This document shows, one piece after another, positions 12,156 to 36,299 of a DNA stretch of 43,434 nt; the stretch's first letter is position 1, and every line of letters begins with the position of its first letter. The notes below the pieces were generated by a model that saw only the letters and a list, made by a program, of their open reading frames with translations, was not told where the DNA came from and did not search any database. Both the position numbers and the translations under genes were made by a program. This stretch comes from a virus, in the IMG/VR virus record IMGVR_UViG_3300028025_004598, positions 1 through 43,434 of that record. One strand, 5' to 3'.

Positions 12156-12713
12156 TTATTTTGTTTTTGTGTTAAATTTACTAAGTTCGTCTTGCGTGAA
12201 GAATTGCGTTAAGTCTGGCGAGAAATATTTTACATTTTTCATTACCTTCATATCATCACGATAAACCACATAACCTTCACCAACTTTTTTGTAGTGACAT
12301 GGGCGACCTTGTTGCTTAGAACGTACATTAACCGTTTCAATGGCATCTTCTTCGGTCATACATATTTTGGATAAATTGGAGGCTTGCACTTCTGCATAAC
12401 CTGCTTCAAATTTGTCCTTTAAACCGAATACTAACGCACCATTTCCAGTACATACATATGTGATGTCTAGTAACGCGTCAAATACACCCACGATATCGTT
12501 AGCAGCAACCGCTTCTTTTAATTCGTCTAGCTCCTCTTGAATAAAATCAACTACAAACTGAGCATCTGCTGCCTCAATGGTTGGGGTAGTTCGGTTTTGA
12601 TATGACTTACCCATCATGGTATTGAATTCTTCCACTTCACTGATGAATGGTACGTAATTTGATTTGAACATGTTTGTGGTGATGTCTGCTAATTTTTTGT
12701 ATATTGTTTTCAT
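12156..12713 (-). CDS. MazG/HisE-like nucleotide pyrophosphohydrolase
   Basis: The 185-residue product contains VDFIQEELDELKEAVAANDIVGVFDALLDITYV, the EExxE...D all-alpha NTP-pyrophosphatase Mg site, then a YEVQASNLSKI-like segment (here YAEVQASNLSKICMTEE). It probably removes pyrophosphate from particular NTPs or dNTPs. The start lies 3 bases after the folE stop, so a link to dGTP or deazapurine precursor control is possible but unproven. Confidence 0.8.
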   Translation of the reverse strand: MKTIYKKLADITTNMFKSNYVPFISEVEEFNTMMGKSYQNRTTPTIEAADAQFVVDFIQEELDELKEAVAANDIVGVFDALLDITYVCTGNGALVFGLKDKFEAGYAEVQASNLSKICMTEEDAIETVNVRSKQQGRPCHYKKVGEGYVVYRDDMKVMKNVKYFSPDLTQFFTQDELSKFNTKTK

Positions 12714-12715
12714 AA

Positions 12716-13429
12716 TTAGAATTTTAATTTGATCATTTCGATTACTTCCTGTTTTGCTGTTTTTGTATGGTTAGCGAACACACCAGATACTTCAGATGTA
12801 ACCATGGATGCACCGGAGTGCTTCACACCTCTACATTTTACACAATTATGTGTCGAGTCAATCATGACCATTACACCAATATTGCCTGAACAAATCTTGG
12901 ATATTGCGTTGTGGATGGCTACAGTTAACTGTTCTTGGATTGCTCCACGACGACCAAAATGCTCTACGATGCGGTTAAGTTTGGATAAACCAACTACACT
13001 ACCGTCTTTCCCGGGGATATATGCTATGTGTACTCTACCCTCAATTGTTTGGTGGTGGTGCGAACATTGGCTAGTTAATGGTATGTTTTTCTCTAACACG
13101 ATACCATTATATCCGTCGGATGGGAATGAAGTAACGTCTGACATTAATTCGTAGCGGCCTTTCCACAGGTCATTTACGTATGCTTTTGCTACACGACGAG
13201 GTGTATTGTCTGAATTCGGGTCGTCTTGCCAGTTACAGCCAAGTGCGGTTAAGAATTCACCGTAGTGGAATGTTGCTTTGTCAATGATTTGCAGTTTTTC
13301 TAAATCGTTTAATGAACGGTGCTCACCTTTAGCGATAAGTTCAGCTAAATAGGTAGATATACCGTTTGCGTGTCCTGCTGTTGCAATTTCGAGTTCCTCT
13401 ACTTTTACTTTCTTTTCTTTTCTACTCAT
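12716..13429 (-). CDS. folE: GTP cyclohydrolase I
   Basis: The 237-residue protein carries FolE signatures: CSHHHQTIEGRVHIAYIPG, SKLNRIVEHFGRRGAIQEQLT and HNCVKCRGVKHSGASMVTSE, giving the zinc-binding Cys/His set. It converts GTP to dihydroneopterin triphosphate, the first step toward 7-deazaguanine bases. QueD-family, QueE, QueC and DpdA-like genes follow the same strand between 14.0 and 20.4 kb, so it probably serves DNA modification and not folate synthesis. Confidence 0.96.
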   Translation of the reverse strand: MSRKEKKVKVEELEIATAGHANGISTYLAELIAKGEHRSLNDLEKLQIIDKATFHYGEFLTALGCNWQDDPNSDNTPRRVAKAYVNDLWKGRYELMSDVTSFPSDGYNGIVLEKNIPLTSQCSHHHQTIEGRVHIAYIPGKDGSVVGLSKLNRIVEHFGRRGAIQEQLTVAIHNAISKICSGNIGVMVMIDSTHNCVKCRGVKHSGASMVTSEVSGVFANHTKTAKQEVIEMIKLKF

Positions 13430-13446
13430 ATGTTTTTGTTTTTATG

Positions 13447-13458
13447 TGAATATACAAA
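13447..13458 (-). promoter_or_regulatory. putative promoter for folE unit
   Basis: The minus strand GTTTGTATATTCACAT follows an ACTTGG / CCAGGT hairpin. It lies between the phosphoribosyltransferase stop and folE. Confidence 0.45.
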
Positions 13459-13478
13459 CCTGGGTTGTGGTATCCAAG

Positions 13479-13982
13479 TTAAATTTTATAAATTGCGTCT
13501 AAATTACGACAATAGCCAGCTTCATTGTCCATACCGTAACCATATACCCATTCTTTCTTAACTTCAACACCATACATAAATGGATAGGTTGGTCGTTTAC
13601 AACGGTATCGTTTGAGTAAAGTAACCGCCGTTAATGACGCAGGATTATGCGATTTTAAGCGCTCATGAACTGCGTTCATAGTATTGCCTGAATCGAAGAA
13701 GTCATCAACTATATACACATGTTTTCCAGTTAAGTCTAACTCTATGTCCTTGATTATTTGCAACTCGGATTGTTCTTGTCCGGTGTATGACTTTACTCGC
13801 ATGAAATCACATTTAATGTTTAAATCGATGTTGCGTACTAGATCAGCGAAAAACATGAATCCGCCGTTTAACAGGCAAATCATTACCACATCACCTAGGT
13901 CTGGTTGGTGTTTTTTGGTGATGGTATTGCCTAGCCTACGGGCATTGTTTTTGATTTCGGTTTTGGTTATTAGTATGGACAT
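13479..13982 (-). CDS. purine phosphoribosyltransferase (HPRT-like)
   Basis: The 167-residue length fits the type I family. The PRPP-binding motif is VYIVDDFFDSGNTM near residues 90-103, preceded by VVMICLLNGGFMFFADLVR (PPi loop region); FMRVKSYTG matches the flexible-loop region of HPRTs. It would salvage hypoxanthine/guanine or a related base to the nucleotide. Within a deazaguanine cluster it might act on purine precursors, but plain salvage is the simpler view. Confidence 0.85.
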   Translation of the reverse strand: MSILITKTEIKNNARRLGNTITKKHQPDLGDVVMICLLNGGFMFFADLVRNIDLNIKCDFMRVKSYTGQEQSELQIIKDIELDLTGKHVYIVDDFFDSGNTMNAVHERLKSHNPASLTAVTLLKRYRCKRPTYPFMYGVEVKKEWVYGYGMDNEAGYCRNLDAIYKI

Positions 13983-14003
13983 GGTGGTGTGTATTTAGTT
14001 AAA

Positions 14004-14840
14004 TCAAACATAGCGGTTTTTTCCAAACATCATGATGTGTAAGCGAGGGCAAAATCTCCACCCACGTTTAAGTGCTTGTTCAGCTACCCAACCAGTTCTT
14101 GAGTTTAATGTGTTTACATCTACTCCCTCGGGCATTAAACATATATCTGATGGGCCAAATCCATCTAATTGGGATAATATGCTTTCGATTTCCTCGATGT
14201 CTTGTTCAGTAGCAACAACAAATTTCAATTGAAAGTCGCAATCATGATGATGTCTATCATTTATATATTGTTGCATTGCCTCAATATTGATACGATCACG
14301 TTCATGGCGTTCAGCCCATTTTTGCTTGTATTCTACGCCAGAATTTTTCAAATTGGCTACCCATGGTGTGGATGATGCTAACTTAGGTGACATGGACATC
14401 AAATTAGAATATTTTGAAATACGCTCATCATATATAGTAGCGTTTGTTTCGATGGTGATATGGTAAAATAAAGCGTTTAATTTTTGTACTAACTCAACCA
14501 ATGCGTCTGTTTGCATGGTAGGTTCACCACCTGAGATAACAACATGGTTAATGTTTTGGTCGCGTGTATTTTCTACTACGATTTTAACGATATCTTCAAC
14601 GTCCATTTGATTTTTTTCCGGGTTGTGGCTGGAATATGGTGTATCGCATAGTGAGCCGTTTCCGTCTAGCCCAACCCATGCACATCTCAAATTACATGCA
14701 GATGTACGAATGAACAGACATGCTGTTCCAGTTAATTTACCTTCACCTTGGAATGTACCACTGTACTGAAATCCAGTGGAGTCCTCGTTTAGTTTGCCTT
14801 TGATGGGGAATATACCCCCGTGTACTAAATTTAATTTCAT
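14004..14840 (-). CDS. queE: 7-carboxy-7-deazaguanine synthase QueE (radical SAM)
   Basis: The 278-residue protein has the QueE substrate loop GIFPIKGKLNEDSTGFQYSG and GTFQGEGKLTGTACLFIRT, an iron-sulfur Cys set C49, C53 and C65, ISGGEPTMQ for SAM binding and VSPKL-like MSPKLAS. It turns 6-carboxytetrahydropterin into 7-carboxy-7-deazaguanine. The Cys spacing is CX3CX11C, where the textbook pattern is CX3CX2C; some QueE proteins do have insertions here. Flanked by a thioredoxin and the phosphoribosyltransferase. Confidence 0.93.
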   Translation of the reverse strand: MKLNLVHGGIFPIKGKLNEDSTGFQYSGTFQGEGKLTGTACLFIRTSACNLRCAWVGLDGNGSLCDTPYSSHNPEKNQMDVEDIVKIVVENTRDQNINHVVISGGEPTMQTDALVELVQKLNALFYHITIETNATIYDERISKYSNLMSMSPKLASSTPWVANLKNSGVEYKQKWAERHERDRINIEAMQQYINDRHHHDCDFQLKFVVATEQDIEEIESILSQLDGFGPSDICLMPEGVDVNTLNSRTGWVAEQALKRGWRFCPRLHIMMFGKNRYV

Positions 14841-14867
14841 ATAACTATTTTTGGTTAAAGATACAAA

Positions 14868-14885
14868 TGGCTCCTTGCGGAGCCA
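14868..14885 (-). terminator. hairpin with GCAA tetraloop after thioredoxin gene
   Basis: A TGGCTCC / GGAGCCA 7-bp stem with a GNRA-type GCAA loop is followed by TTTGTATCTTTAACC on the minus strand. The same hairpin recurs at 28933-28950. Confidence 0.65.
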
Positions 14886-14891
14886 AATTTT

Positions 14892-15134
14892 TTAAGCAAG
14901 CATGCTCACTAATTGCCCTTCGGTTAATACACCGGATTTTTTATCAATGGCACGGCCATTTTCCACTACAACTACTGTAGGTACGGCACGAATGCCGTAT
15001 TCTGCTACGAGTTGTGGTTCTTGGTCGACATCAACGAATTTCACTGGGTATGATTGGCTGACACGGTCAACAGTGGGTCTAAATGATTTGCATGGGTTGC
15101 AAAATGTACCGTAAAAGTAAATTAATTGTTTCAT
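14892..15134 (-). CDS. thioredoxin-like protein
   Basis: From the ATG at 15134 the product is 80 residues: MKQLIYFYGTFCNPCKSF, with the CNPC redox motif at residues 12-15, VDVDQEPQLVAEYGIRAVPTVVV containing the cis-proline, and GVLTEGQLVSML. It is a short thioredoxin or glutaredoxin-like electron donor, perhaps for the NrdA/NrdB reductase. A longer reading frame to 15200 exists, but 15134 overlaps the stop of the upstream 37-residue ORF by ATGA, which favours this start. Confidence 0.88.
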   Translation of the reverse strand: MKQLIYFYGTFCNPCKSFRPTVDRVSQSYPVKFVDVDQEPQLVAEYGIRAVPTVVVVENGRAIDKKSGVLTEGQLVSMLA

Positions 15135-15244
15135 TTGATTGTGTATTTTACGATTAATGGTTGAGGGAACTCGGGATCCCACGAAGTGGTATAAGTCCAA
15201 GCTAGCTGAACGTTACCATATTGTCTAATTGTTGGGGTATCCAT
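15131..15244 (-). CDS. 37-residue small protein coupled to thioredoxin
   Basis: MDTPTIRQYGNVQLAWTYTT opens a short frame ending IVKYTIK. It starts 4 bases after the QueD-like stop and its TGA overlaps the thioredoxin ATG, so it fills the gap exactly. Function unknown; coding status inferred from the tight packing. Confidence 0.5.
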   Translation of the reverse strand: MDTPTIRQYGNVQLAWTYTTSWDPEFPQPLIVKYTIK

Positions 15245-15248
15245 GGGT

Positions 15249-15683
15249 TTAGTAATTAGTTACTTCTAATTTTACAAGATTTACTCTTCCTTCGGTTTCG
15301 TCGGTAATAAGCGTCTGGATTGTATTGAATAAATATTTCTCGATTCCCTCCTTAGTGGTTGAATCCATTAGTCGGAGTTGAATGGTGCCTTTACGGTTCA
15401 TGTCCTCAAATGTTTCTCTAAGTGGATCGTCATTTTGAATAAGACATGTATGGTCAAACAAATACGAAAAATAATCCTTTACACTCATTCCGGATATAGT
15501 TTGCTTGGAACGCTTCATCCAACCAAAATCAGCAACCCAGTTTCTATGGTCCAATTCACCTTCAAAGTGCATTCTGAATTTAATATCACATCCATGCAGT
15601 TGTTGTGTTTGGTCTGTTGCGGAATGGTTTCTATAACATGTAGAATAACCGTCCATTAATTTTGATGACTGGAATTTTTTCAT
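15249..15683 (-). CDS. QueD/PTPS-family protein, divergent active site
   Basis: The 144-residue protein belongs to the 6-pyruvoyl-tetrahydropterin synthase fold: QLHGCDIKFRMHFEGELD then NWVADFGWMK, YLFDHTCLI and a C-terminal VKLEVTNY. In QueD enzymes the metal site is LHGH preceded by a catalytic Cys; here H33 is replaced by C32 and the preceding residues are QTQQ, with no Cys. It may be a modified-function or structural partner of the QueD-like protein at 16642-17061. An endonuclease gene sits between the two. Confidence 0.78.
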   Translation of the reverse strand: MKKFQSSKLMDGYSTCYRNHSATDQTQQLHGCDIKFRMHFEGELDHRNWVADFGWMKRSKQTISGMSVKDYFSYLFDHTCLIQNDDPLRETFEDMNRKGTIQLRLMDSTTKEGIEKYLFNTIQTLITDETEGRVNLVKLEVTNY

Positions 15684-16591
15684 TTTTTATTGTTTATATG
15701 GATTTTCTTTATATGTTGATTAAATATACGACCTTCTATTTCGGTTAGGAAATTATCTAAATTAACTTTATATGAGTCTACAGGTTTTCTGTTTAACATA
15801 AAACTATCTTCAAATAGGAATAAACACTTAATGTTGTTGCTATTGTAAAATTCAATTTTTTCATTCATTCGTGATTTGTATGTGTTAATATTGGACATAC
15901 CAAATACCTCGATGAATGTTCTTGTTTTGGGTAAATAAAAATCGGGTGAATAGTTTTTACCATCGTAAGATAGACGAACATTTGAAAAATATTTAACACC
16001 AATTTCAAACATATGGTCAGCTAATTTTTCTTCCCACGTTGATAAAAATTTATCCCCACGGTCATTATAGTAAGCATTGTAGTCACCTGAATAAAATCGT
16101 TCTATTGAATGGTACTGAGCATATTCTTCCTTAGTGAGCAATTTTTTTCGTATATTTCTTATACTAATACCATCAACTCCTTTAATTAAACCCATTTGGT
16201 CATTACCTATACCCAATTTACTCCCATCCAGTACATCCTGAATATCAGTATCTGTTAGTTTGGATGAACTACATTTGGGAGTATTAAAATGATCAATTAT
16301 TAATATATCCTGGGTTTTATGGAGTAATTGGTCTAAGGTGTGATGAGAAACTCCTAGATGTTTGCTTATTTTATTTTTAGTACCGGTATATGGGAATAAG
16401 GGAAGTAATTCTTTTACCATACTCTCTAATTCTTTGTCAAGGGGTAAATTATTAGTACAATATTTATTTATTAACGTGCTAACGGAACTCCTATTTAAAC
16501 CTAACTGATCTGCCACCCAGTATTTTCCTTTAGTGGGGTTTTGATTATATAAGTCTAATATGAGTTGCTTATTCAATGTTTGTCTTGTCAT
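15680..16591 (-). CDS. Vsr-like (EDxHD/PD-(D/E)XK) homing endonuclease
   Basis: The 303-residue protein has N-terminal helix-turn-helix-like segments (VADQLGLNRSSVSTLINKY; ISKHLGVSHHTLDQLL) and a C-terminal nuclease: STWEEKLADHMFEIGVKYF, then YSPDFYLPKTRTFIEVFG. This matches the Vsr-like endonucleases found free in fractured phage genes. It lies between the two QueD-family genes and overlaps the ATG of the downstream one by 4 bases. Its own promoter element is at 16608-16620. Confidence 0.82.
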   Translation of the reverse strand: MTRQTLNKQLILDLYNQNPTKGKYWVADQLGLNRSSVSTLINKYCTNNLPLDKELESMVKELLPLFPYTGTKNKISKHLGVSHHTLDQLLHKTQDILIIDHFNTPKCSSSKLTDTDIQDVLDGSKLGIGNDQMGLIKGVDGISIRNIRKKLLTKEEYAQYHSIERFYSGDYNAYYNDRGDKFLSTWEEKLADHMFEIGVKYFSNVRLSYDGKNYSPDFYLPKTRTFIEVFGMSNINTYKSRMNEKIEFYNSNNIKCLFLFEDSFMLNRKPVDSYKVNLDNFLTEIEGRIFNQHIKKIHINNKK

Positions 16592-16607
16592 GGTGGATTA
16601 TGTTTTA

Positions 16608-16620
16608 TTATACATATTAC
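16608..16620 (-). promoter_or_regulatory. homing-endonuclease promoter element GTAATATGTATAA
   Basis: Exact copy of the 13-mer at 5426-5438 and 24020-24032, 17 bases before the endonuclease ATG. Confidence 0.6.
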
Positions 16621-16641
16621 CACCATGCATGTAAGTACAAT

Positions 16642-17061
16642 TTATATGTAAGCTACTCCACTGTTTTTTTCATGTTCCCATGTCTCTACCCGAACACATT
16701 TAATATCTAAATCAAATTGACTTAGTATAACATTGACGTTATCCAAAACATATTCCGAAAAACGCTCACACCCCACTTCTGGTATTGTTACTAGTGAAAT
16801 GGCTTTGTTTTGATCGAGTAGTTTAAATGTGTCTAGTTCAGGGTCATTTTCAGATACAAATGTTTTGTAGTTAAAATTAGATAGAAACCATTCATTAAGG
16901 TACAATTTTAATTCAGGATATGAATTAAATATACCATTGATGTCTTGGTCAAAATCCAACTCAAACCATACTTTATATGCGTGGGTAAACCTACAGTGTG
17001 TACCTTCAGCACGCCATTGTCTAAAACAAGATGTTAATTGTGGAGATGTAAATTGTGCCAT
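16642..17061 (-). CDS. queD: QueD-like 6-carboxytetrahydropterin synthase
   Basis: The 139-residue protein matches the QueD subfamily with SCFRQWRAEGTHCRFTHAYKVWFELDF near residues 11-37 and a C-terminal VETWEHEKNSGVAYI holding the conserved Glu. C23 sits four residues before H27, the spacing of the catalytic Cys and LHGH His in QueD. It would make 6-carboxytetrahydropterin from the FolE product. Of the two QueD-family genes here it looks the more canonical. Confidence 0.85.
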   Translation of the reverse strand: MAQFTSPQLTSCFRQWRAEGTHCRFTHAYKVWFELDFDQDINGIFNSYPELKLYLNEWFLSNFNYKTFVSENDPELDTFKLLDQNKAISLVTIPEVGCERFSEYVLDNVNVILSQFDLDIKCVRVETWEHEKNSGVAYI

Positions 17062-17064
17062 ATG

Positions 17065-17733
17065 CTATTGTTTAGATTTAAATATAATTTTAATTGAATT
17101 GGTTTGAAATGTTTGTTTTGGGTGAGTAACTGACCAGTTACTACAATCCCAAAATATTTTGGAATATACGGAAATAGTATCGCCAACAAAATATCCTGGT
17201 ATAGGTCCAGCAATTTTCTTGCTCCAAAGCATGCCTGGTTCAGGTTTATATTCGTCTGCTGGTTTGTACATGTCGCCACCAAAGTATTCTTTCAAGTATA
17301 TTCCGTATTTGGTGACCATGGGAACCATGGAGTTTTTGAATTGGTCCAGTGGCATCATGGTGTCTGCTACGGCAATTGGTTTACCGGATGGGAAATGGTA
17401 GCTCCCAAATGGTTGGTATAGTGGTAAAACGATACCTAAATCGCTTCCAAGTATACCTAGTACCCAGTATGAGCTACAGTCAAATTCTGCCTCAATTACC
17501 GACACACCATTGTATTTGTAGTGGTCTATTAATTCGGATGCCTCTACGTATAAGTCCACACGGTTTGAATTTGAATTGGAATCAATGGGTACTAAATAGT
17601 ACCCGTTGATGTCCTGTTCATATTTCATTGTTAATTTGGACTGTTTCCCATTTACGAATGGGTAAGGGTCGACTTCTACTTTCTTGCAACCCATGGTAGC
17701 TAATATAGCTACAACACAAAACCATACTTTCAT
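17065..17733 (-). CDS. predicted lipoprotein, unknown function
   Basis: The 222-residue product begins MKVWFCVVAILATMGCKKVE, a signal peptide with a plausible lipobox (ATMGC), so it should be lipidated at C16. The mature part is beta-rich and has no domain I know. It ends 3 bases before the QueD-like ATG. A phage-encoded lipoprotein can alter the host surface, for example as superinfection exclusion; that is conjecture here. Confidence 0.72.
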   Translation of the reverse strand: MKVWFCVVAILATMGCKKVEVDPYPFVNGKQSKLTMKYEQDINGYYLVPIDSNSNSNRVDLYVEASELIDHYKYNGVSVIEAEFDCSSYWVLGILGSDLGIVLPLYQPFGSYHFPSGKPIAVADTMMPLDQFKNSMVPMVTKYGIYLKEYFGGDMYKPADEYKPEPGMLWSKKIAGPIPGYFVGDTISVYSKIFWDCSNWSVTHPKQTFQTNSIKIIFKSKQ

Positions 17734-17782
17734 ACAACCTTTATTTTAAAGTAAAACCATTTCGTTTTACTTGCTTTATGCT

Positions 17783-17794
17783 GGAATATACGAA
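17783..17794 (-). promoter_or_regulatory. putative early/middle promoter element
   Basis: The minus strand ATTCGTATATTCCAGC lies about 50 bases before the lipoprotein start, after the small membrane-protein gene. Confidence 0.4.
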
Positions 17795-17805
17795 TGGATG
17801 TTTGG

Positions 17806-17961
17806 CTAGACAAGTTCCTCTGCAATTCCTATTAATTCAGATACTATTAATGCCGCTGTTGCATATGTTAGTGAGAATGGGATAAATGTGTATCCGATGA
17901 TGCGTACTCCGGATTTCACGAAGCTAACTAGTTGGTGTAATTTTGGATCTGGGTGTTTCAT
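17806..17961 (-). CDS. 51-residue membrane protein
   Basis: MKHPDPKLHQLVSFVKSGVR begins the frame, followed by one hydrophobic span, IIGYTFIPFSLTYATAALIV, and an acidic end SELIGIAEELV. It starts 4 bases after the HEXXH protein stop. I recall very similar short proteins in other phages but know no function. Confidence 0.7.
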   Translation of the reverse strand: MKHPDPKLHQLVSFVKSGVRIIGYTFIPFSLTYATAALIVSELIGIAEELV

Positions 17962-17964
17962 TGT

Positions 17965-18288
17965 TTATATATGTTTAGTGAAGTTAAATATTGGTCGATT
18001 GGTTAAATAGTGTGGGTTGTCCTGGTTCCTATATGCTTCTCGCTCAAATGATATGCTCCAGTAGCCTTTGGTGTAGTATTCAACTAAATACCAAATATAA
18101 AATGGCAAAATTAACATTTCTATTTGCTGTCTCAAATGTATACGTTCATGGTTGATTAGTTGAGGTGTTACGGTTGCATCTTTTGATACAAAAATAAATG
18201 GGTAAAATGCTAGTGCAGTTATATGTTTACCCATTTTTCCTAAAAATAAACCAAAAATAAACAACATTGTGTTACTTCGGACAATCAT
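17965..18288 (-). CDS. small membrane-associated HEXXH protein
   Basis: The 107-residue product has a hydrophobic N-terminus, then NHERIHLRQQIEMLILPFYIWYLVEY and SFEREAYRNQDN. HERIH is an HEXXH zinc motif and the downstream SFEREAY Glu may be the third ligand, so a zincin-like metallopeptidase at the membrane is possible. Similar proteins are widespread in flavobacteria without assigned function. Located just downstream of queC. Confidence 0.68.
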   Translation of the reverse strand: MIVRSNTMLFIFGLFLGKMGKHITALAFYPFIFVSKDATVTPQLINHERIHLRQQIEMLILPFYIWYLVEYYTKGYWSISFEREAYRNQDNPHYLTNRPIFNFTKHI

Positions 18289-18299
18289 GTATTGTATGT

Positions 18300-19007
18300 T
18301 TAGTAATTGTATCTAGTTTTGAACTCGTCCCACCCTTTTGCTCTCAATTCACATGCTGGGCAGAATGGGTCTTCTGGTGTGCCTTGCTCTGAGCTGAATC
18401 CCCACTCGTGTTGGTATGTTCTTTCTCCATTGTAGCATGTGTGGGACAATGAAATTACGTCGTCTAAACATCCCTCGTCTAATGCTAATTTGAATGTATC
18501 TGCTTTGTCTAAGTACATTAATGGTGTTTCGATGGATAAACCAGATGCTTTTTCTCCAAATACACCCAAGTTCATTGTTTCAAGCAATGAATCAACGAAA
18601 TCACGTCTGCAATCAGGGTAACCGCTATAGTCAGTTTGACAAACTCCCGTCACTAACGCATCCGTATTAGTTTTTAACGCATAAACATATGCATTGTACA
18701 GAAATATACCGTTTCTACCCGGTACAAACGAGGATGGTAAACCATACTTATTGATTTGGGATACATCACCATTGGATGTAAGTGCACTTTCTGCTAAGTA
18801 ACCCAACGATTGGTCTAAATTAACCACAACTTGTTTTACTCCGGTTTTTTCCAATATTTTAATGGATTGTTCAACCTCGATTGAATGTTTTTGCCCATAC
18901 TGGAATGTAATGGCTTCTACGGTTTCGTATCTGTTTAATGCCCAGTATAGGCATGTAGTAGAATCTTGTCCACCCGAAAATACTACAATTGCTTTTCCTT
19001 TTTTCAT
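18300..19007 (-). CDS. queC: 7-cyano-7-deazaguanine (preQ0) synthase QueC
   Basis: The 235-residue protein has the PP-loop VVFSGGQDSTTCLYW at residues 8-22 and LVTGVCQTDYSGYPDCR, typical of QueC. It makes preQ0 from 7-carboxy-7-deazaguanine with ATP and ammonia. The zinc region has C191, C216 and C219 with an expanded 24-residue gap, so one of the usual four cysteines appears to be missing; H200 could substitute. It overlaps the next upstream gene by ATGA. Confidence 0.95.
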   Translation of the reverse strand: MKKGKAIVVFSGGQDSTTCLYWALNRYETVEAITFQYGQKHSIEVEQSIKILEKTGVKQVVVNLDQSLGYLAESALTSNGDVSQINKYGLPSSFVPGRNGIFLYNAYVYALKTNTDALVTGVCQTDYSGYPDCRRDFVDSLLETMNLGVFGEKASGLSIETPLMYLDKADTFKLALDEGCLDDVISLSHTCYNGERTYQHEWGFSSEQGTPEDPFCPACELRAKGWDEFKTRYNY

Positions 19008-19285
19008 AATTTATCTGATATTTGTTGCAATATACACATTTCTTCCTCGCTTAAACGGAAGCGAACCATAGGATCGGTTAGTTTGTTTATGATTTTGATG
19101 TATTCGAGATCACCCATGGACATGCGAGAGTCATTAATTAAATGTGACATTTTAATATAGTCACCGTTTTGCAACCACTCCACTACCTCGTTTATTTCGT
19201 GTGTGGAGCATGCGTCTAAAAATTCATCTACGTCAATTTCAACATCAACGTCTACAAATTGGCTGTATTTAGTTAATTCTGGCAT
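19004..19285 (-). CDS. small acidic protein, unknown
   Basis: 93 residues with an acidic stretch FVDVDVEIDVDEFLDAC and helical C-terminal half ending LQQISDKL. No family is recognised. It overlaps queC by 4 bases and lies between DpdA-like and QueC genes, so it may be co-expressed with the modification pathway. Confidence 0.6.
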   Translation of the reverse strand: MPELTKYSQFVDVDVEIDVDEFLDACSTHEINEVVEWLQNGDYIKMSHLINDSRMSMGDLEYIKIINKLTDPMVRFRLSEEEMCILQQISDKL

Positions 19286-19289
19286 GGCT

Positions 19290-19547
19290 CTATTTGTTTA
19301 ATGAATAATAGTCTTGTAAATCACCTAACGTAGCATCGTCCATTGGGTCTGGTTCAGCAAAAAATGCGTCCAAGAAGTCCTTCGGGTACAAAAATACCAT
19401 ACCGGTATAGTTTGGGTTAGATACAGGACGTTGTTTTGGGTAAATTTTGCTTTTGTAAGCCGCTGCCGCTACTTTTTTTCCTAATTCAGGTCCAGCTGCT
19501 TTTCCTAAATAGTCATACAATGACAAAAATGTTTCTCTTGGTTCCAT
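19290..19547 (-). CDS. small conserved hypothetical protein
   Basis: 85 residues, MEPRETFLSLYDYLGKAAGPELGKKV with a motif-like AYKSKIYPKQRPVSNPNYTG. I do not recognise it. The ATG has the AAAAGTTATG context, and a promoter-like element precedes it. It lies 4 bases before the next gene. Confidence 0.6.
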   Translation of the reverse strand: MEPRETFLSLYDYLGKAAGPELGKKVAAAAYKSKIYPKQRPVSNPNYTGMVFLYPKDFLDAFFAEPDPMDDATLGDLQDYYSLNK

Positions 19548-19572
19548 AACTTTTATTGTTTTTAAATATGAT

Positions 19573-19584
19573 TGAATATACGAA
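19573..19584 (-). promoter_or_regulatory. putative early/middle promoter for queC unit
   Basis: The minus strand AATTCGTATATTCAATC directly follows a TTGGAT / ATCCAA hairpin, after the DpdA-like gene stop. Confidence 0.5.
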
Positions 19585-19604
19585 TTGGATTTGAGGTATC
19601 CAAA

Positions 19605-20399
19605 TTAAAGTCCATTAATTGAACGAAATTTCATTACATTGTATTCAACTAAATGAATATTGATGTCCTCAAGTGGTATGTCCTGGTAGTTGTTCATGTT
19701 TGCTTTTGGTTTACGATATACACCGGATTCATCGTATACAGTACCATCTAACGCAGCCATAATTGGGTTTGATGTATCCAGTGACTCGATGAATGGCATG
19801 TCTTTGTATAGCGAGAATTCAGCTGGCCATGCCGTACCAAGTAAATGTACACGGTCACTACCCAACAATATACCTTCTTCGTACATGCGGGAAATGGCAA
19901 TGAAACGGCCTATTGCTTTACCAAAGTCTGGATTTAATGCAGGGCATAACTCGTTGTAGTATGATGCACCGTACGAAAATGCGAATTTCTTGTAGCCTAA
20001 ATCACGGTATGCTTGTACACACAACATAGCCTCATGTAGCGATTTTGCTTGGATTACTGCTGTTTTAGTGGTTGTCTCGGGTACTGCTATGTTTGACCAT
20101 CGTCTCGCGTTTACAACGGAGGTATCGTAGTCTTCCCACGCGTCTGGGACGAAGAATGTAGATGGCTCTAGTATGTTCACCCATTTAGTGAGTAATTCAT
20201 CGGATACACTGGCGCCAAGTTCGTGCAATGAATTGTCGAGGTATATTTCGATGCTGTCTGCTTTACATTGCATGAAGTGCTCACGATATTGCTCGTTTTG
20301 CTCCATTAGGTGGGGGAGGCAGTACTGATAGTCGTTAAATTTTAAACTATTACCCAACAGGCAAAATGGGGTTTCATGACTTACAATAATTTTTTTCAT
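19605..20399 (-). CDS. dpdA: DpdA-like DNA deazaguanine transglycosylase
   Basis: The 264-residue protein has features of the tRNA-guanine transglycosylase superfamily branch that acts on phage DNA: IEIYLDNSLHELG, FVPDAWEDYDTS, VQAYRDLGYKKFAFSYG and RVHLLGTAWPAEF followed by SLDTSNPIMAALDG, where the Asp would be the nucleophile. It should exchange guanine in DNA for a 7-deazaguanine base, most simply preQ0 since no QueF or amidotransferase gene is visible. It is shorter than tRNA TGT enzymes (about 375 residues). Overlaps the upstream outer-membrane gene by ATGA. Confidence 0.82.
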   Translation of the reverse strand: MKKIIVSHETPFCLLGNSLKFNDYQYCLPHLMEQNEQYREHFMQCKADSIEIYLDNSLHELGASVSDELLTKWVNILEPSTFFVPDAWEDYDTSVVNARRWSNIAVPETTTKTAVIQAKSLHEAMLCVQAYRDLGYKKFAFSYGASYYNELCPALNPDFGKAIGRFIAISRMYEEGILLGSDRVHLLGTAWPAEFSLYKDMPFIESLDTSNPIMAALDGTVYDESGVYRKPKANMNNYQDIPLEDINIHLVEYNVMKFRSINGL

Positions 20400-23444: not shown

Positions 23445-23517
23445 AGCCTCTGGCCGGCTATGATCCAGCGACCTTTTGATTACAAATCAAATGCTCTACC
23501 AACTGAGCTACAGAGGC
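23445..23517 (-). tRNA. tRNA-Thr (anticodon TGT)
   Basis: Acceptor GCCTCTG/CAGAGGC, D arm GCTC...GAGC, anticodon stem TTTGA/TCAAA with loop TTTGTAA. The T stem GCTGG/CCGGC pairs, but the T loop is ATCATAG, not TTCRANN, which is unusual. CCA is not encoded. Confidence 0.85.
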
Positions 23518-24057: not shown

Positions 24058-24142
24058 CGGAAAAGATGCGATTCGAACGCATGGTACTTTTCAGTACGAC
24101 GGTTTTCAAGACCGTTGGTTTAAACCACTCACCCACTTTTCC
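24058..24142 (-). tRNA. tRNA-Ser (anticodon TGA)
   Basis: Acceptor GGAAAAG/CTTTTCC with discriminator G, anticodon stem ACGGT/ACCGT with loop CTTGAAA, a long variable arm GTACTGAAAAGTAC, and T arm ATGCG-TTCGAAT-CGCAT. All class II tRNA-Ser features are present; 85 bases. It begins immediately after the tmRNA coding piece. Confidence 0.93.
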
Positions 24143-24294
24143 AGTTCCCATTTAACTAAGCCAAATGGGATAAATGCTTTGAGTAAAACTACCTACTAGG
24201 CAGCAATGCTCATATGGTTTTGGTTGCCGTTTAAAGCGTTAAATAACTCTCAGTATACCGTACCTCATATGCAGTCAAAGCCAAATACACGCCC
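24143..24294 (-). ncRNA. ssrA: tmRNA coding piece (5' half) of a circularly permuted tmRNA
   Basis: The RNA begins GGGCGTG, followed by TATTTGGCTTTGA, equivalent to ATTCTGGATTCGA of E. coli tmRNA, then CTGCATAT (24274-24267). GGGCGTG pairs with CACGTCC of the acceptor piece, including G3-U70, and CTGCATAT is the exact complement of ATATGCAG there (helix P2). The tag frame runs 24228-24199: GGC resume codon, GNQNHMSIAA, then TAG TAG, inside a CTGCC/GGTAG hairpin as in helix P5. A TCCCATTT/AAATGGGA hairpin (24146-24170) ends the piece next to tRNA-Ser. 3' boundary is inferred. Confidence 0.86.
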
Positions 24295-24317
24295 ATATAT
24301 GATGTATTGTCGGTTTG
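24295..24317 (-). other. intervening segment of the permuted tmRNA gene
   Basis: These 23 bases separate the CCA of the acceptor piece from the first G of the coding piece. In known permuted tmRNA genes such a segment is removed by tRNA-processing enzymes, leaving two RNAs held by base pairing. Confidence 0.7.
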
Positions 24318-24384
24318 TGGTGGACGTGCTGGGTGTCGAACCCAGGTCCTGCATATTTTCCAGTGTACCTCACTGAATTATTCG
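24318..24384 (-). ncRNA. ssrA: tmRNA acceptor piece (3' half), lies upstream of coding piece
   Basis: The 3' end reads GGAC, T arm CTGGG-TTCGACA-CCCAG (24345-24329), CACGTCC (24328-24322), discriminator A and encoded CCA (24320-24318), the typical tmRNA 3' domain. No 5' acceptor strand lies before it; the matching GGGCGTG is found downstream at 24294. Upstream of the P2 strand ATATGCAG is a CAGTG-AGGTA-CACTG hairpin (24375-24361). The 5' boundary is set at the end of the tRNA-Met-like gene and is inferred. Confidence 0.86.
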
Positions 24385-26386: not shown

Positions 26387-26460
26387 TGGAGAATGCCAGA
26401 GTCAAACTGGCGACCTCTACATTGCAAGTGTAGCGCTCTAATCAACTGAGCTAATCCCCC
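26387..26460 (-). tRNA. tRNA-Ala (anticodon TGC)
   Basis: Acceptor GGGGGAT/ATTCTCC contains the G3-U70 alanine identity pair and discriminator A. D arm GCTC/GAGC, anticodon stem CTACA/TGTAG with loop CTTGCAA, T arm GCCAG-TTTGACT-CTGGC. CCA is not encoded. The cognate synthetase-like gene lies 0.9 kb downstream. Confidence 0.95.
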
Positions 26461-32895: not shown

Positions 32896-33927
32896 TTATG
32901 CGTGACAGCTAATGCATTCATTGTCAGTAGTGATACTATCACCACGTAACGAGCTTTCACTACGCATGTAGTACAAACATTTGATGCCCTCACGCCACGC
33001 TAACTTATGCACATCGCTAATTACCTTTGGTGGTGTGTTTGGATCGAACATAAGATTAAGTGAAATGGCTTGGTCAACGTATTTTTGACGTATACCGTTT
33101 TGCCTAACGATTTCGAATGGGTTGATTTCCTTGAACGTCAAGAACACCTCCTTTTCCTCGTCCGACAATATATAGTCTGGTAGGTTAAGTACACTTCCTT
33201 TGTCTTCCTGTATTTGTTTCCAAACGCTGTCGATGTTGTAGCCTTTCGCCTCCAACACGCGCTCGAGTACCGGGTTTTTCTTGATGAATGTGCCCTTTGC
33301 TGTTTTTAAATTGAATATGTTTGCTGGGATTGGCTCAATTGATGCCGATACACCACCTGAAATGTTTGCGTTTGATACCGTTGGTGCTACAGCACAATGG
33401 TGTGTGTGACGCAACCCTGTTCCTTTACACCATTCCGGTTCGCCATATAGTTCGGCTTGTTCTTTGGATGCGCGTAGCGCACCTTTTTCAATTTTGTCGA
33501 ACATTAAACGTGTGTATGAATTGGCTTGTAGTCCGGCAAATGGAATGTTGTGTTCTTGTAGGAACGTGTGCCATCCCAATACGCCAATACCAATTGCTCT
33601 ACCTTTTACTGCGGAACGGTATGTGTTTTCTAGTAGTTTCACGTTTTTTGAACGGTCGATGAATTCTTGCAATACACCTTCCAAGAACCAACATGCTAGT
33701 TCAGGTAGATCCATTCCGTTTGCGAATTTATAGTCGTTCCACTCGTCCCAACGAGCCAAGTTAAGTGACGATAAACAGCAAATGAATGAGTGGAGTTCAT
33801 CTGTATACAATGAAATTTCTGAACAGTTATGTACTACAGCGCCATTTGCATAGAAGTTGTGGTTGTCTTGTACCGTTACATCGTATACCGGTTTTGTTGT
33901 GTTTACTTTTGTAATTTTTAATGCCAT
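32896..33927 (-). CDS. nrdA: ribonucleotide reductase NrdA C-terminal part fused to split-intein C half
   Basis: 343 residues. The first 34 are an intein C-terminal half: VYDVTVQDNHNFYANG (block F) and VVHN (block G), then Cys as +1 extein residue. The extein continues CSEISL and CCLSSLNLARW, carrying active-site residues, and ends ECISCHA, the C-terminal redox Cys pair. The Cys +1 corresponds to the radical Cys of N-x-C-x-E (E. coli Cys439). Trans-splicing with the product of 35187-36299 would give a 575-residue class I subunit without an ATP cone. Confidence 0.93.
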   Translation of the reverse strand: MALKITKVNTTKPVYDVTVQDNHNFYANGAVVHNCSEISLYTDELHSFICCLSSLNLARWDEWNDYKFANGMDLPELACWFLEGVLQEFIDRSKNVKLLENTYRSAVKGRAIGIGVLGWHTFLQEHNIPFAGLQANSYTRLMFDKIEKGALRASKEQAELYGEPEWCKGTGLRHTHHCAVAPTVSNANISGGVSASIEPIPANIFNLKTAKGTFIKKNPVLERVLEAKGYNIDSVWKQIQEDKGSVLNLPDYILSDEEKEVFLTFKEINPFEIVRQNGIRQKYVDQAISLNLMFDPNTPPKVISDVHKLAWREGIKCLYYMRSESSLRGDSITTDNECISCHA

Positions 33928-33930
33928 AAT

Positions 33931-34731
33931 TTATTGTGTTTTAAATTTCCATGTATAACCATAAATGGTTGTGTATTTTCCTTTGGCGCATTGCCCTATC
34001 GCCGCTCCTGTTTTTTTACCCAAAGCACGACCTGCTTCTGTTGTGCTGGCGAATTCTTGGATGAATATACCATCTTTACTGTACTGAAGCACGGGTTTGT
34101 TGTTTTTTCCCAAATTGTTCAACCGTGCCTTTTCTTTTGATTCGGTTGAATGTACTTTTCCTTTCATGGGCGATACTCTGCCTTTGTGTCCCTTCGACTT
34201 ACCAACATGGGATTCGCCTATTTTCCTATTGTGTTCATCACTGCGTGGTGGTTTTGGTTTTTGATTAGCTAAACTAATTTTCTGCTTAATTTCATCGGTC
34301 ATGAAATCATCCCGAGGTACACCCCTGTTTGAATGTACTTTTGTATGTTTCTTGCCAATTTTACCTTCAGACATACGACGTTTGGTTTCTTCACTTTTTG
34401 GACCAGACCCATGGTCATATAAATCGCAAAATAATGCTGTTTCCCACCCAAATTCTTCTATGTGCTGTAATTTGTAATGTAATTCACGTTCCATCAGCAT
34501 GTCTATTTCACATGTTTCCAACAAATAAAATGTATGGTTTTCAAACCCATATTTGTTGAATGATCTGTGTATTTTGGGTTGACTCTTAGTGTGACCATTT
34601 TTGTATATGTTCATCCTAGATTGCATATGTTGTGATTTACCAATGTACACCTTTCCACTAGGGGATACAATTTTATATATCCCGGATATCTCTTCCTTTT
34701 GATTCGCGATACTTTCGTTTAAGTTTTTCAT
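33931..34731 (-). CDS. GIY-YIG homing endonuclease with NUMOD3/NUMOD1 modules
   Basis: From the ATG at 34731 the product is 266 residues. The nuclease domain is SGIYKIVSPSGKVYIGKS followed by RSFNKYGFENHTFYLLETC and MERELHYKLQHIEEFG. Several NUMOD3-like stretches (RRMSEGKIGKKHTKVHS; RKIGESHVGKSKGHKG) and a terminal NUMOD1-like FIQEFASTTEAGRALGK follow. It lies freestanding between the two nrdA halves. It overlaps the short frame at 34673-34828 that may be its displaced N-terminus. Confidence 0.88.
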   Translation of the reverse strand: MKNLNESIANQKEEISGIYKIVSPSGKVYIGKSQHMQSRMNIYKNGHTKSQPKIHRSFNKYGFENHTFYLLETCEIDMLMERELHYKLQHIEEFGWETALFCDLYDHGSGPKSEETKRRMSEGKIGKKHTKVHSNRGVPRDDFMTDEIKQKISLANQKPKPPRSDEHNRKIGESHVGKSKGHKGRVSPMKGKVHSTESKEKARLNNLGKNNKPVLQYSKDGIFIQEFASTTEAGRALGKKTGAAIGQCAKGKYTTIYGYTWKFKTQ

Positions 34732-34828
34732 CGATTGCTTGTTTATTTGCCCAGTAGTATTTTTTACTGTATTCTCGTTGGGCGAGAACACGTTCTTCTT
34801 CTGTTTGGTATTTTTTAATACGTCCCAT
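34673..34828 (-). pseudogene. N-terminal segment of the GIY-YIG gene in another frame
   Basis: ATG at 34828 opens MGRIKKYQTEEERVLAQREY, then KKYYWANKQAID and a stop at 34673. This charged helical N-terminus is typical for phage GIY-YIG endonucleases. It overlaps the nuclease frame by 59 bases; switching frames near the TCAAAAGGAAGAG run would yield one protein. A frameshift mutation, programmed shift or real overlapping small gene are all possible. Confidence 0.55.
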
Positions 34829-34833
34829 ATCGG

Positions 34834-34846
34834 TTATAAATATTAC
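34834..34846 (-). promoter_or_regulatory. homing-endonuclease promoter element GTAATATTTATAA
   Basis: One-base variant of the 13-mer at the other three endonuclease genes. It supports 34828 as the original start of this gene. Confidence 0.6.
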
Positions 34847-34882
34847 AGGCCTAAGAACAAGTCGCAGAAAAACAAAAGTATT

Positions 34883-35203
34883 TTACAACATTTGCTGCTT
34901 CAAGTTGGATATTTCTTGGTTATATAAATTAATAAATTGTTCGTTCGATTCAATTATGGATGTGGAATCGGTTAACACATTGTATTCTATTTCGTGACAC
35001 ACAGTATTATTACTCACGCCTATAAACCATATATTTTCCCAGTTACTCTGGATGAATACTAATAGGTTGGGGTCGTTAGGTGAAATGAAGAAATAATCTC
35101 CTACTTCAAGGTTGCGAGTGGATAGGTCTTTGTGTAGACCCATAAATCGCCCGCGAGAGGTAGGGATTTTTTCAGTGTAGTGTTGTTTAGTATACAAGCT
35201 CAT
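34883..35203 (-). CDS. hypothetical protein between nrdA halves
   Basis: 106 residues, MSLYTKQHYTEKIPTSRGRF with a beta-rich middle VGDYFFISPNDPNLLVFIQ. No family recognised. Overlaps the end of the NrdA N-half by 17 bases. It may be cargo that came with the intein-endonuclease insertion. Confidence 0.6.
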   Translation of the reverse strand: MSLYTKQHYTEKIPTSRGRFMGLHKDLSTRNLEVGDYFFISPNDPNLLVFIQSNWENIWFIGVSNNTVCHEIEYNVLTDSTSIIESNEQFINLYNQEISNLKQQML

Positions 35204-36299
35204 CTTCTTCAGTTAAATGTTGTGCCTCAACCCAACCACGGTTTTTAGTTAAGATTTTATGCTCAGGTGTACATTGCAATTTAAATCCAGTTGACTCGTC
35301 CTCGATTTCCAACAATTCTGCGTCTGGGTGGGTCAAGCCAAAATTAGTTACTAGTTTAAATTCTTGTGCATTGGTGTCAGTATTGTAACTCAAAATGTAC
35401 ACTTCTGGGTTGGTATGTAAATGGTATTCCAGGTTGTGTATCTCTATGTCTTGAATGGTGTCGCCAGTTTTGATAGTGATTTTAGTATCGCCAGTCACAC
35501 ATATATTGGTCATTGACACGTTCAAATTGAAATTCTTATATGCTTGCGGGTTTGCATTGTTTACATTGTCCTCAAACATAAGATATGGTTCACCGGTTTC
35601 AAGGCGTGTTTTTAGTATCTCGCCCCAAATTTTCTGTGCGTGTGGATCTTTCGCCTCAACTCGGTTCATGAATGAATCGTCAATTACAACACATTGGTGC
35701 AAATTCAGACATTGTCTATTTACGTCTCCTTTTGGTCGTCTAATGCCAAGAAATTCCTCGATGTCTGGGTGGTTAACTGAAAGGTTAACTGATGCAGCAC
35801 CACGTCTAACGGAACCCTGGTTTGTTGCTAGGATGGTAGAATCAAATATCTTGCACCACGGAACAACACCCTCGCTCACACCGTTGCCGGATATTTCTTT
35901 ACCACGTCCTCTGATGCGGGATACACCAATACCAACACCACCACCGGAAGCACCCAAACGCATTAATTCAGCGTTAGCTAATGCGATACCGTCAATGGAA
36001 TCATGTGTATCAATACCGAAGCATGAAATAGGCATTCCGCGTTCCGTACCTAAATTGGATAGCACTGGTGATGCAAGGCAAAGCCAATTTTTCTCCATTG
36101 CTTCGTAGAAGTATTGCTGCAAGTCCTTACGTTTAAGGCGGCGAGATGCTGCTTTAGATACACGTGTGAATGCTTTGAATACATTTTCGTGTGGCAGTAA
36201 GTAGCCTTGTGAAATGGTGGCCATACCAATTTGATCGAGCCACGCCGGGTAGTCTTTGCCTTTCACCCAGTTTGATGTATCTACGTTTATTTTGCTCAT
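35187..36299 (-). CDS. nrdA: ribonucleotide reductase NrdA N-terminal part fused to split-intein N half
   Basis: 370 residues. Residues 1-266 are NrdA: LASPVLSNLGTERGMPISCFG with redox C93, LGASGGGVGIGVSRIRG, GSVRRGAASVNLSVNHPDIEEFL. After VSMTNI the intein begins, CVTGDTKITIK (block A), and 104 residues on it stops after CTPEHKILTKNRGWVEAQHL (block B with TxxH). There is no endonuclease domain inside, so this is a true split. The partner lies at 32896-33927. No ATP cone is present. Confidence 0.94.
   Translation of the reverse strand: MSKINVDTSNWVKGKDYPAWLDQIGMATISQGYLLPHENVFKAFTRVSKAASRRLKRKDLQQYFYEAMEKNWLCLASPVLSNLGTERGMPISCFGIDTHDSIDGIALANAELMRLGASGGGVGIGVSRIRGRGKEISGNGVSEGVVPWCKIFDSTILATNQGSVRRGAASVNLSVNHPDIEEFLGIRRPKGDVNRQCLNLHQCVVIDDSFMNRVEAKDPHAQKIWGEILKTRLETGEPYLMFEDNVNNANPQAYKNFNLNVSMTNICVTGDTKITIKTGDTIQDIEIHNLEYHLHTNPEVYILSYNTDTNAQEFKLVTNFGLTHPDAELLEIEDESTGFKLQCTPEHKILTKNRGWVEAQHLTEEDELVY

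Follow-up and report, generated by a model that had tools for sequence, protein, structure and literature searches.

7-Deazaguanine bases replace deoxyguanosine (dG) to different extents in the phages described so far. In Escherichia phage CAjan approximately 32% of G is replaced (PMC6884629), and in the firehammerviruses dG is wholly replaced (PMC10273834). Hutinet et al. (PMC6884629) assigned the Campylobacter phages to the group lacking DpdA and, on the strength of a report cited there, remarked on their high content of 2′-deoxy-7-amido-7-deazaguanosine (dADG). The present analysis concerns a 43,434-base stretch of viral DNA, IMG/VR record IMGVR_UViG_3300028025_004598, known here as a fragment and referred to in full as the window. 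It carries a 7-deazaguanine DNA-modification cluster, which is a further member of this known kind of system; what is new is that QueD is represented by two paralogues from which catalytic residues have been lost in complementary fashion. Genes were called from Pfam, PHROG (phrog_) and TIGR profile matches of the window proteins.

Complementary residue losses in two QueD paralogues

Related loci encode one QueD of approximately 154 aa. The window encodes two, with a putative endonuclease gene between them:

15249-15683, minus strand: QueD1, 144 aa (phrog_2389, 3.5e-23; studied by alignment, census and reciprocal-loss test)
15680-16591, minus strand: putative homing endonuclease (phrog_9019, Holliday junction resolvase, 2.2e-9; phrog_945, endonuclease, 2.1e-4)
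16642-17061, minus strand: QueD2, 139 aa (phrog_2389, 1.6e-23; studied by the same three means and with AlphaFold2)

It is apparent from the alignment that QueD1 retains the RNWVADFG and FDHT segments, including Asp77-His78, and that the THC motif, and with it the catalytic Cys, has been lost, as has the protein end with its conserved Glu. QueD2 retains SCFRQWRAEGTHC, the His after it and VETWEHEKNSG, and keeps Cys23, His22, His27 and Glu129; RNWVxDFG is lost and LDHT has become FNYK, so that the Asp is gone. The motif CxxxHGH with the catalytic Cys is present in neither protein. QueD2 reads CRFTHAY, in which the Cys and the first His are kept but HGH is not, and the single phage QueDs read CxxLHGY. 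Neither protein has a complete Cys/Asp-His triad, which is divided between them. An earlier note on this DNA, made from its letters alone, spoke of two QueD-family proteins. The family name stands, as both match phrog_2389, but these are not ordinary QueDs.

A sequence search of the PDB with QueD2 returned chance matches only and was uninformative, so that a fold search was needed. The AlphaFold2 model of QueD2 (predicted local distance difference test score, pLDDT, 95.0) has the fold shared by 6-pyruvoyltetrahydropterin synthase (PTPS) and QueD, and QueD structures are among its best matches (E. coli QueD 4ntm, E value 3.4e-5). Other identities were considered and set aside. The signature motifs of PTPS-II and PTPS-III (PMC5041015) mismatch both proteins in the alignment, and a search with phiST gp40, which looks PTPS-like by eye, matched no window protein. 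Sequencing error was rejected in view of the same pattern in three independent contigs.

The two other phage contigs with such a pair are L112, in which the same endonuclease (69%) separates the genes, and L051, in which no endonuclease intervenes and the genes overlap at stop and start codons. A census of the gathered loci comprised 161 distinct QueD proteins, 155 from single-QueD loci and six from the three pairs. All 155 single QueDs keep the Cys and the Asp-His (that of locus L081, flagged by a motif search, reads TACKFLHG and so keeps its Cys), and all six deviants belong to the pairs: the Cys is missing from 3/3 QueD1 proteins and the Asp from 3/3 QueD2 proteins. Among the single QueDs, 34 positions are conserved in 95% or more of the sequences. 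QueD1 has losses at 11 of these and QueD2 at 16, with one shared against 5.2 expected (P 0.0026, for positions that are not independent). Those of QueD1 fall where the Cys, the metal site and the anchor lie (Q, W, A, H, C, Y and the C-terminal E and N), and those of QueD2 on the opposite side (D, N, W, D, G, D, H and others).

In a tree built from 56 QueDs, the QueD1s of the three pairs group together (99/98) and branch from within the single QueDs; their QueD2s group together as well (100/100), on a long stem of 1.17 changes per column. One clade for each paralogue suggests that the pair was probably inherited from a single event. Between the window and L112, pN/pS was 0.32 for QueD1, 0.35 for QueD2 and 0.35 for DpdA, with the same codon-position pattern; synonymous divergence is saturated or high in these comparisons, and the values are therefore read only relative to that of DpdA. 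Both paralogues are under purifying selection. No further doublets were found among the matches listed from two IMG/VR profile scans, in a phage collection (one place per record) or in a GTDB scan, and with sampling so limited the rarity of pairs speaks only for what was sampled.

The endonuclease start codon lies within a predicted hairpin (16588-16641, minus strand, –16.2 kcal/mol, z –2.76) with a TATAATA-like sequence in its loop. This recalls T4 endonuclease genes that have their starts hidden in early transcripts.

A possible subunit arrangement

PTPS has six active sites, each between three adjacent monomers (PMC7546909), and a classic paper cited there calls the catalytic triad intersubunit in its title; the PTPS Cys is the nucleophile (PMC2229834). 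As the triad is shared between subunits, an obligate complex of QueD1 and QueD2 would be the best explanation of the pattern. The Cys and the anchoring Glu are said to come from one PTPS subunit, and the Asp-His pair from its neighbour, in work by Ploom dating from 1999; the losses in the aligned QueD1 and QueD2 follow this division. A mixed complex would also be the simplest reading of those losses. In such a complex QueD2 would supply the metal-site histidines, the catalytic Cys and the substrate-anchoring Glu, and QueD1, from the other side of the subunit interface, the Asp-His pair. We know of no earlier natural split-site heteromer of PTPS or QueD, and a search of the available literature found no report of a heteromeric QueD. 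If correct, this would be a clean natural case of a homomer turned into an obligate heteromer through complementary interface loss, with single-gene relatives available for comparison.

The DpdA-like transglycosylase and the modified base

The enzyme proposed to act on DNA is encoded at the far end of the cluster:

19605-20399, minus strand: DpdA-like DNA guanine transglycosylase, 264 aa (phrog_19058, 1.2e-32; modelled with AlphaFold2 and searched with Foldseek)

Profile libraries (Pfam, PHROG and TIGR) were weak overall for this protein, and no Pfam family exceeded the cut-off. A DpdA call might on that account seem wishful, an objection removed by the fold. The AlphaFold2 model (mean pLDDT 95.7, alignment of 30 sequences) has the TIM-barrel of the tRNA-guanine transglycosylases (TGTs), and its best 50 PDB matches in Foldseek were TGTs and the bacterial DNA preQ0 insertase DpdA 7ui4 (E values from 5e-8 to 2e-6). 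The model thus identifies a TGT-fold enzyme. Residues D55, D86, Q117, H185, L187, G188 and D208 are invariant in the 30 sequences and in four named homologues, from Campylobacter, Flavobacterium, Chryseobacterium and Cellulophaga phages. D208 sits in the motif SLDTSNP, and the aspartates follow the order of the TGT motifs, which makes Asp208 a candidate nucleophile. The earlier note had named the lack of this Asp as a ground for doubting the pathway; its invariance removes that ground. With the conserved operon and the TGT fold, it leaves the predicted 7-deazaguanine pathway well supported.

The closest named relatives of this DpdA are those of the Campylobacter firehammerviruses and of Flavobacterium phage immuto, with 32-33% identity to the firehammervirus homologue over 99% of the length. 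The homologue detected here in Campylobacter phage CP220 is a good candidate for the enzyme missing from the Campylobacter phages in the grouping of Hutinet et al. The subfamily is reportedly that named DpdA3 by Cui et al. in 2023 and tied to complete replacement; we take the window protein to belong to it, by its homology to the firehammervirus DpdA. Because this DpdA groups with that of the fully replacing firehammerviruses, complete replacement of dG appears at least as likely as partial. The expectation that only part of the dG is replaced fits phages such as CAjan, and would here have to give way at least in part. The prediction for this phage moves from a partial loss of dG to one that may be complete, with consequences for its sequencing, its cloning and its resistance to restriction.

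Within the 43-kb record, DpdA together with FolE, QueD, QueE and QueC and no amidotransferase would correspond to the group 2 set for 2′-deoxy-7-cyano-7-deazaguanosine (dPreQ0) of Hutinet (2019). As the earlier note stated, no QueF, amidotransferase or ArcS-like gene is seen: a search for QueF was negative for the window and for nine related IMG/VR contigs, of which one has 268 kb, and Pfam scans of the window proteins, some small open reading frames (ORFs) excepted, showed no amidotransferase or ArcS-like domain. Its further step, that dPreQ0 is the simplest product, does not clearly follow, since CP220 likewise has QueC and no QueF and such phages carry dADG, as Crippen reportedly found in 2019. 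The sequence cannot by itself fix the base, and both fit; we put dPreQ0 at somewhat less than an even chance and dADG at about one in three. Attempts to read the base from the QueC type or the DpdA pocket were abandoned, no clear matching change in DpdA being seen.

Phosphoribosyltransferases and displaced guanine

The earlier note overlooked three members of the cluster: the putative homing endonuclease, a thioredoxin-like gene and a phosphoribosyltransferase gene between queE and folE:

13479-13982, minus strand: hypoxanthine-guanine phosphoribosyltransferase, HGPRT (PF00156, 1.2e-20; TIGR01203, 6.5e-42; PDB HPRTs, E values to 9.4e-29)

The TIGR01203 score of 143.1 bits is just under the cut-off of 150, but the protein is a family member by its other matches and has the phosphoribosyl pyrophosphate loop VDDFFDSGNT. 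Among 56 related loci with DpdA, QueE and FolE, the HGPRT type is present in 21 and the xanthine-guanine phosphoribosyltransferase (XGPRT) type, as in immuto, in 11; the two never occur together, and in the other 24 neither was seen. The XGPRT type matches 35 records in a cultured-phage collection, and several of these matches lie in the N-terminal third of a FolE of about 300 aa encoded beside queD, with dpdA and queC near. This domain is below the Pfam cut-off, aligns with XGPRTs and contains the RGG and VDDxxDxG motifs. Such FolEs with an unannotated XGPRT-like domain of about 115 aa are seen in DpdA-bearing siphophages (L265:1498-2397, L266:1489-2373 and L267:2471-3361).

The swap by DpdA releases guanine, and its return to GMP, then to GTP for FolE, would close a cycle. 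It is our hypothesis, from gene content, that the HGPRT recycles this guanine. In the available literature no paper was found that mentions phosphoribosyltransferase, DpdA and guanine together. If the link is real, whether as operon member or as FolE fusion, it would explain how guanine is disposed of when much or all of G is replaced.

Assessment of the proposed pathway and of alternatives

Taken together, the data suggest a scheme in which FolE, a two-protein QueD, QueE and QueC would convert GTP to a 7-deazaguanine base (preQ0 or 7-amido-7-deazaguanine), which a DpdA of the firehammervirus and immuto type would put in the place of guanine in the phage DNA, perhaps at the majority of G positions or at all of them, while the HGPRT may return displaced guanine to GMP and hence to GTP for FolE. 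DNA so modified would probably be hidden from bacterial defences. To this explanation as a whole we assign a probability of roughly 0.6. The more specific claim, an obligate QueD1/QueD2 heteromer whose triad was divided by reciprocal loss, in an operon that recycles DpdA-displaced guanine, we consider slightly better than an even bet. Several points weigh against it, besides the non-independent positions and the synonymous saturation given above. The physical complex is a step that we infer from the losses. L051 is less extreme: the C-terminal Glu is still present in its QueD1, and of the Asp-His pair the His survives in its QueD2. There are only three pairs, on fragmentary contigs, and an intact third queD elsewhere in those genomes is possible. 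As for guanine, no phosphoribosyltransferase is seen in the available DNA of 24 of the 56 related loci, and CP220 has no PF00156 gene.

Decay of a duplicated queD, perhaps duplicated by way of the endonuclease gene, with a host QueD or another phage copy supplying the intermediate, would account for two proteins that lack residues kept throughout the single QueDs, and for the endonuclease gene between the pair in two of three cases. It is nevertheless unlikely, given reading frames that are intact in three divergent phages, pN/pS values that resemble that of DpdA, losses that avoid overlap and, in L051, a pair without an intervening endonuclease. We regard as no more probable a division of labour, in which one paralogue would be catalytic, with altered chemistry, while the other would act as a regulator or as the partner of some other protein; no active site would be shared. 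The long QueD2 stem, the loss of RNWVxDFG and the binding of other proteins by T-fold enzymes (GCH1, PMC7546909) fit that view; the lost residues, however, split along catalytic groups, and the window holds no single intact QueD for the pathway step.

A phosphoribosyltransferase inside the operon and ribonucleotide reductase genes in the window might instead point to a preQ0 nucleotide made by the former, then reduced and incorporated by polymerase, as in other fully substituted phages. This seems quite improbable in the presence of a TGT-fold DpdA with intact aspartates. Moreover, phosphates of dADG were reportedly not seen in Campylobacter phage infections (Crippen's 2019 work), and modification in CAjan requires dpdA (PMC6884629). 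Least probable of all is a pathway that raises host tRNA queuosine and leaves phage DNA unmodified, a role suggested by the TGT fold and raised for phages without DpdA (PMC6884629). The protein is a short TGT homologue with named relatives in phages whose DNA is modified (PMC10273834), and QueA, QueG and QueH genes were not found in viruses (PMC6884629). Base exchange on phage DNA by the DpdA remains the activity proposed here.

Cluster layout and other features of the window

The remaining genes of the cluster are as follows:

12156-12713, minus strand: MazG-like nucleotide pyrophosphohydrolase (PF01503, 1.9e-9), at the equivalent position in several relatives
12716-13429, minus strand: FolE, GTP cyclohydrolase I (PF01227, 7.7e-43; PDB FolE, 1e-30)
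14004-14840, minus strand: QueE, radical S-adenosylmethionine 7-carboxy-7-deazaguanine synthase (phrog_2076, 2.3e-48)
14892-15200, minus strand: thioredoxin-like protein (PF00085, 6.9e-17), within the operon in relatives too
17806-17961, minus strand: orf51, conserved small protein, 50-76% identical and in the same position in most relatives
18300-19007, minus strand: QueC, canonical type (PF06508, 7.1e-61, 205.8 bits; TIGR00364, 199.1 bits, cut-off 150.3)
19290-19547, minus strand: orf85, small protein adjoining dpdA, downstream of dpdA in most relatives

The family matches bear out the earlier assignment of FolE, two QueD-family proteins, QueE, QueC and a DpdA-like protein to one strand and to about these positions; on the pathway itself, that note was largely right. 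All window genes with family matches are on the minus strand. The order in the block is DpdA, orf85, orf93, QueC, orf107, orf51, a possible lipoprotein of 222 aa, QueD2, the putative homing endonuclease, QueD1, the thioredoxin-like protein, QueE, HGPRT, FolE and MazG. A scan of IMG/VR with the DpdA protein yielded 42 contigs. In relatives with long enough flanks, the order DpdA-orf85-QueC-orf51-thioredoxin-QueD-QueE-phosphoribosyltransferase-FolE, in some cases with MazG after it, is mostly preserved, at DpdA identities of 39-73%. Dozens of other IMG/VR contigs carry these genes in an order that is largely the same, which argues that the cluster is not due to chance; the block is a conserved operon. 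In the L054 ORF (L054:6001-6765), QueD was seen by eye to form one protein with an orf85-like domain, a fusion that links the small protein encoded beside dpdA to the pathway.

Genes have been swapped within this framework: the window and L007 share QueC at 96% and QueE at 31%, and the window and L008 share QueE at 95% and QueC at 31%. There are two types of QueC, the canonical one in the window, L007, L112, L117 and L168, and a longer, divergent one (approximately 270-315 aa) in L248, L008, L009 and most DpdA loci of the IMG/VR scan. The window QueC shares 57% identity with its counterpart in Cellulophaga phage phiSM and has three of four zinc cysteines. The cluster cysteines of QueE are unusually spaced, as Cx3Cx13C in the window and Cx3Cx7C in many relatives; in L051 and L112 the third Cys was not found within the 28 residues shown. 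Closest named relatives of several cluster genes occur in phages of Flavobacterium, Chryseobacterium and Cellulophaga, so that the host of this tailed phage is probably a member of the Bacteroidota.

Elsewhere the window encodes a family B DNA polymerase, gp32-like, DnaB and RecA-like proteins, ribonucleotide reductase and GroEL. The ribonucleotide reductase large subunit (32896-36299, minus strand) is encoded by two ORFs that each contain an intein splicing half, with a GIY-YIG endonuclease ORF between them; the arrangement looks like a split intein. A permuted two-piece transfer-messenger RNA (tmRNA) gene (24196-24374, minus strand; RF04321, 66.8 bits, cut-off 47; tag GNQNHMSIAA) has tRNA genes near it (23445-23517, 24058-24142 and 26387-26460). 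Beside the tmRNA gene are a 280-aa alanyl-tRNA synthetase-like fragment (PF01411; 24669-25511, minus strand) and a tRNA-Ala gene, and the three are possibly a phage-borne trans-translation module.

Comparison with known systems

The CP220 group of Campylobacter phages (firehammervirus) resembles the window in its DpdA subfamily (32-33% identity), QueC, QueD-like genes and lack of QueF. Its genes are scattered, whereas those of the window form an operon; one QueD is annotated in the stretches read, against two here; and it has no PF00156 gene, against the HGPRT of the window. A thymidylate-kinase-like P-loop gene (L003:9819-10361, L002:10478-11002) adjoins the DpdA gene in CP220 and is near it in immuto, a possible nucleotide step.

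In Flavobacterium phage immuto, as in the window, QueD, QueE, a phosphoribosyltransferase, FolE, MazG and DpdA are encoded close together, with identities of 33% for DpdA and 46% for QueD1. Unlike the window, immuto has one QueD, a QueF, a formyltransferase-like gene, an enzyme of the XGPRT type and a divergent QueC with no zinc-site cysteines at all. Escherichia phage CAjan (dPreQ0, DpdA1) likewise groups FolE, QueD, QueE, QueC and a transglycosylase, but differs in its DpdA subfamily, its one QueD, its lack of a PF00156 gene and its replacement of about 32% of G (PMC6884629). With E. coli QueD and PTPS-I, QueD2 shares the fold, and the main catalytic elements are present once QueD1 and QueD2 are pooled; the difference is that in the window they are divided between two paralogues.

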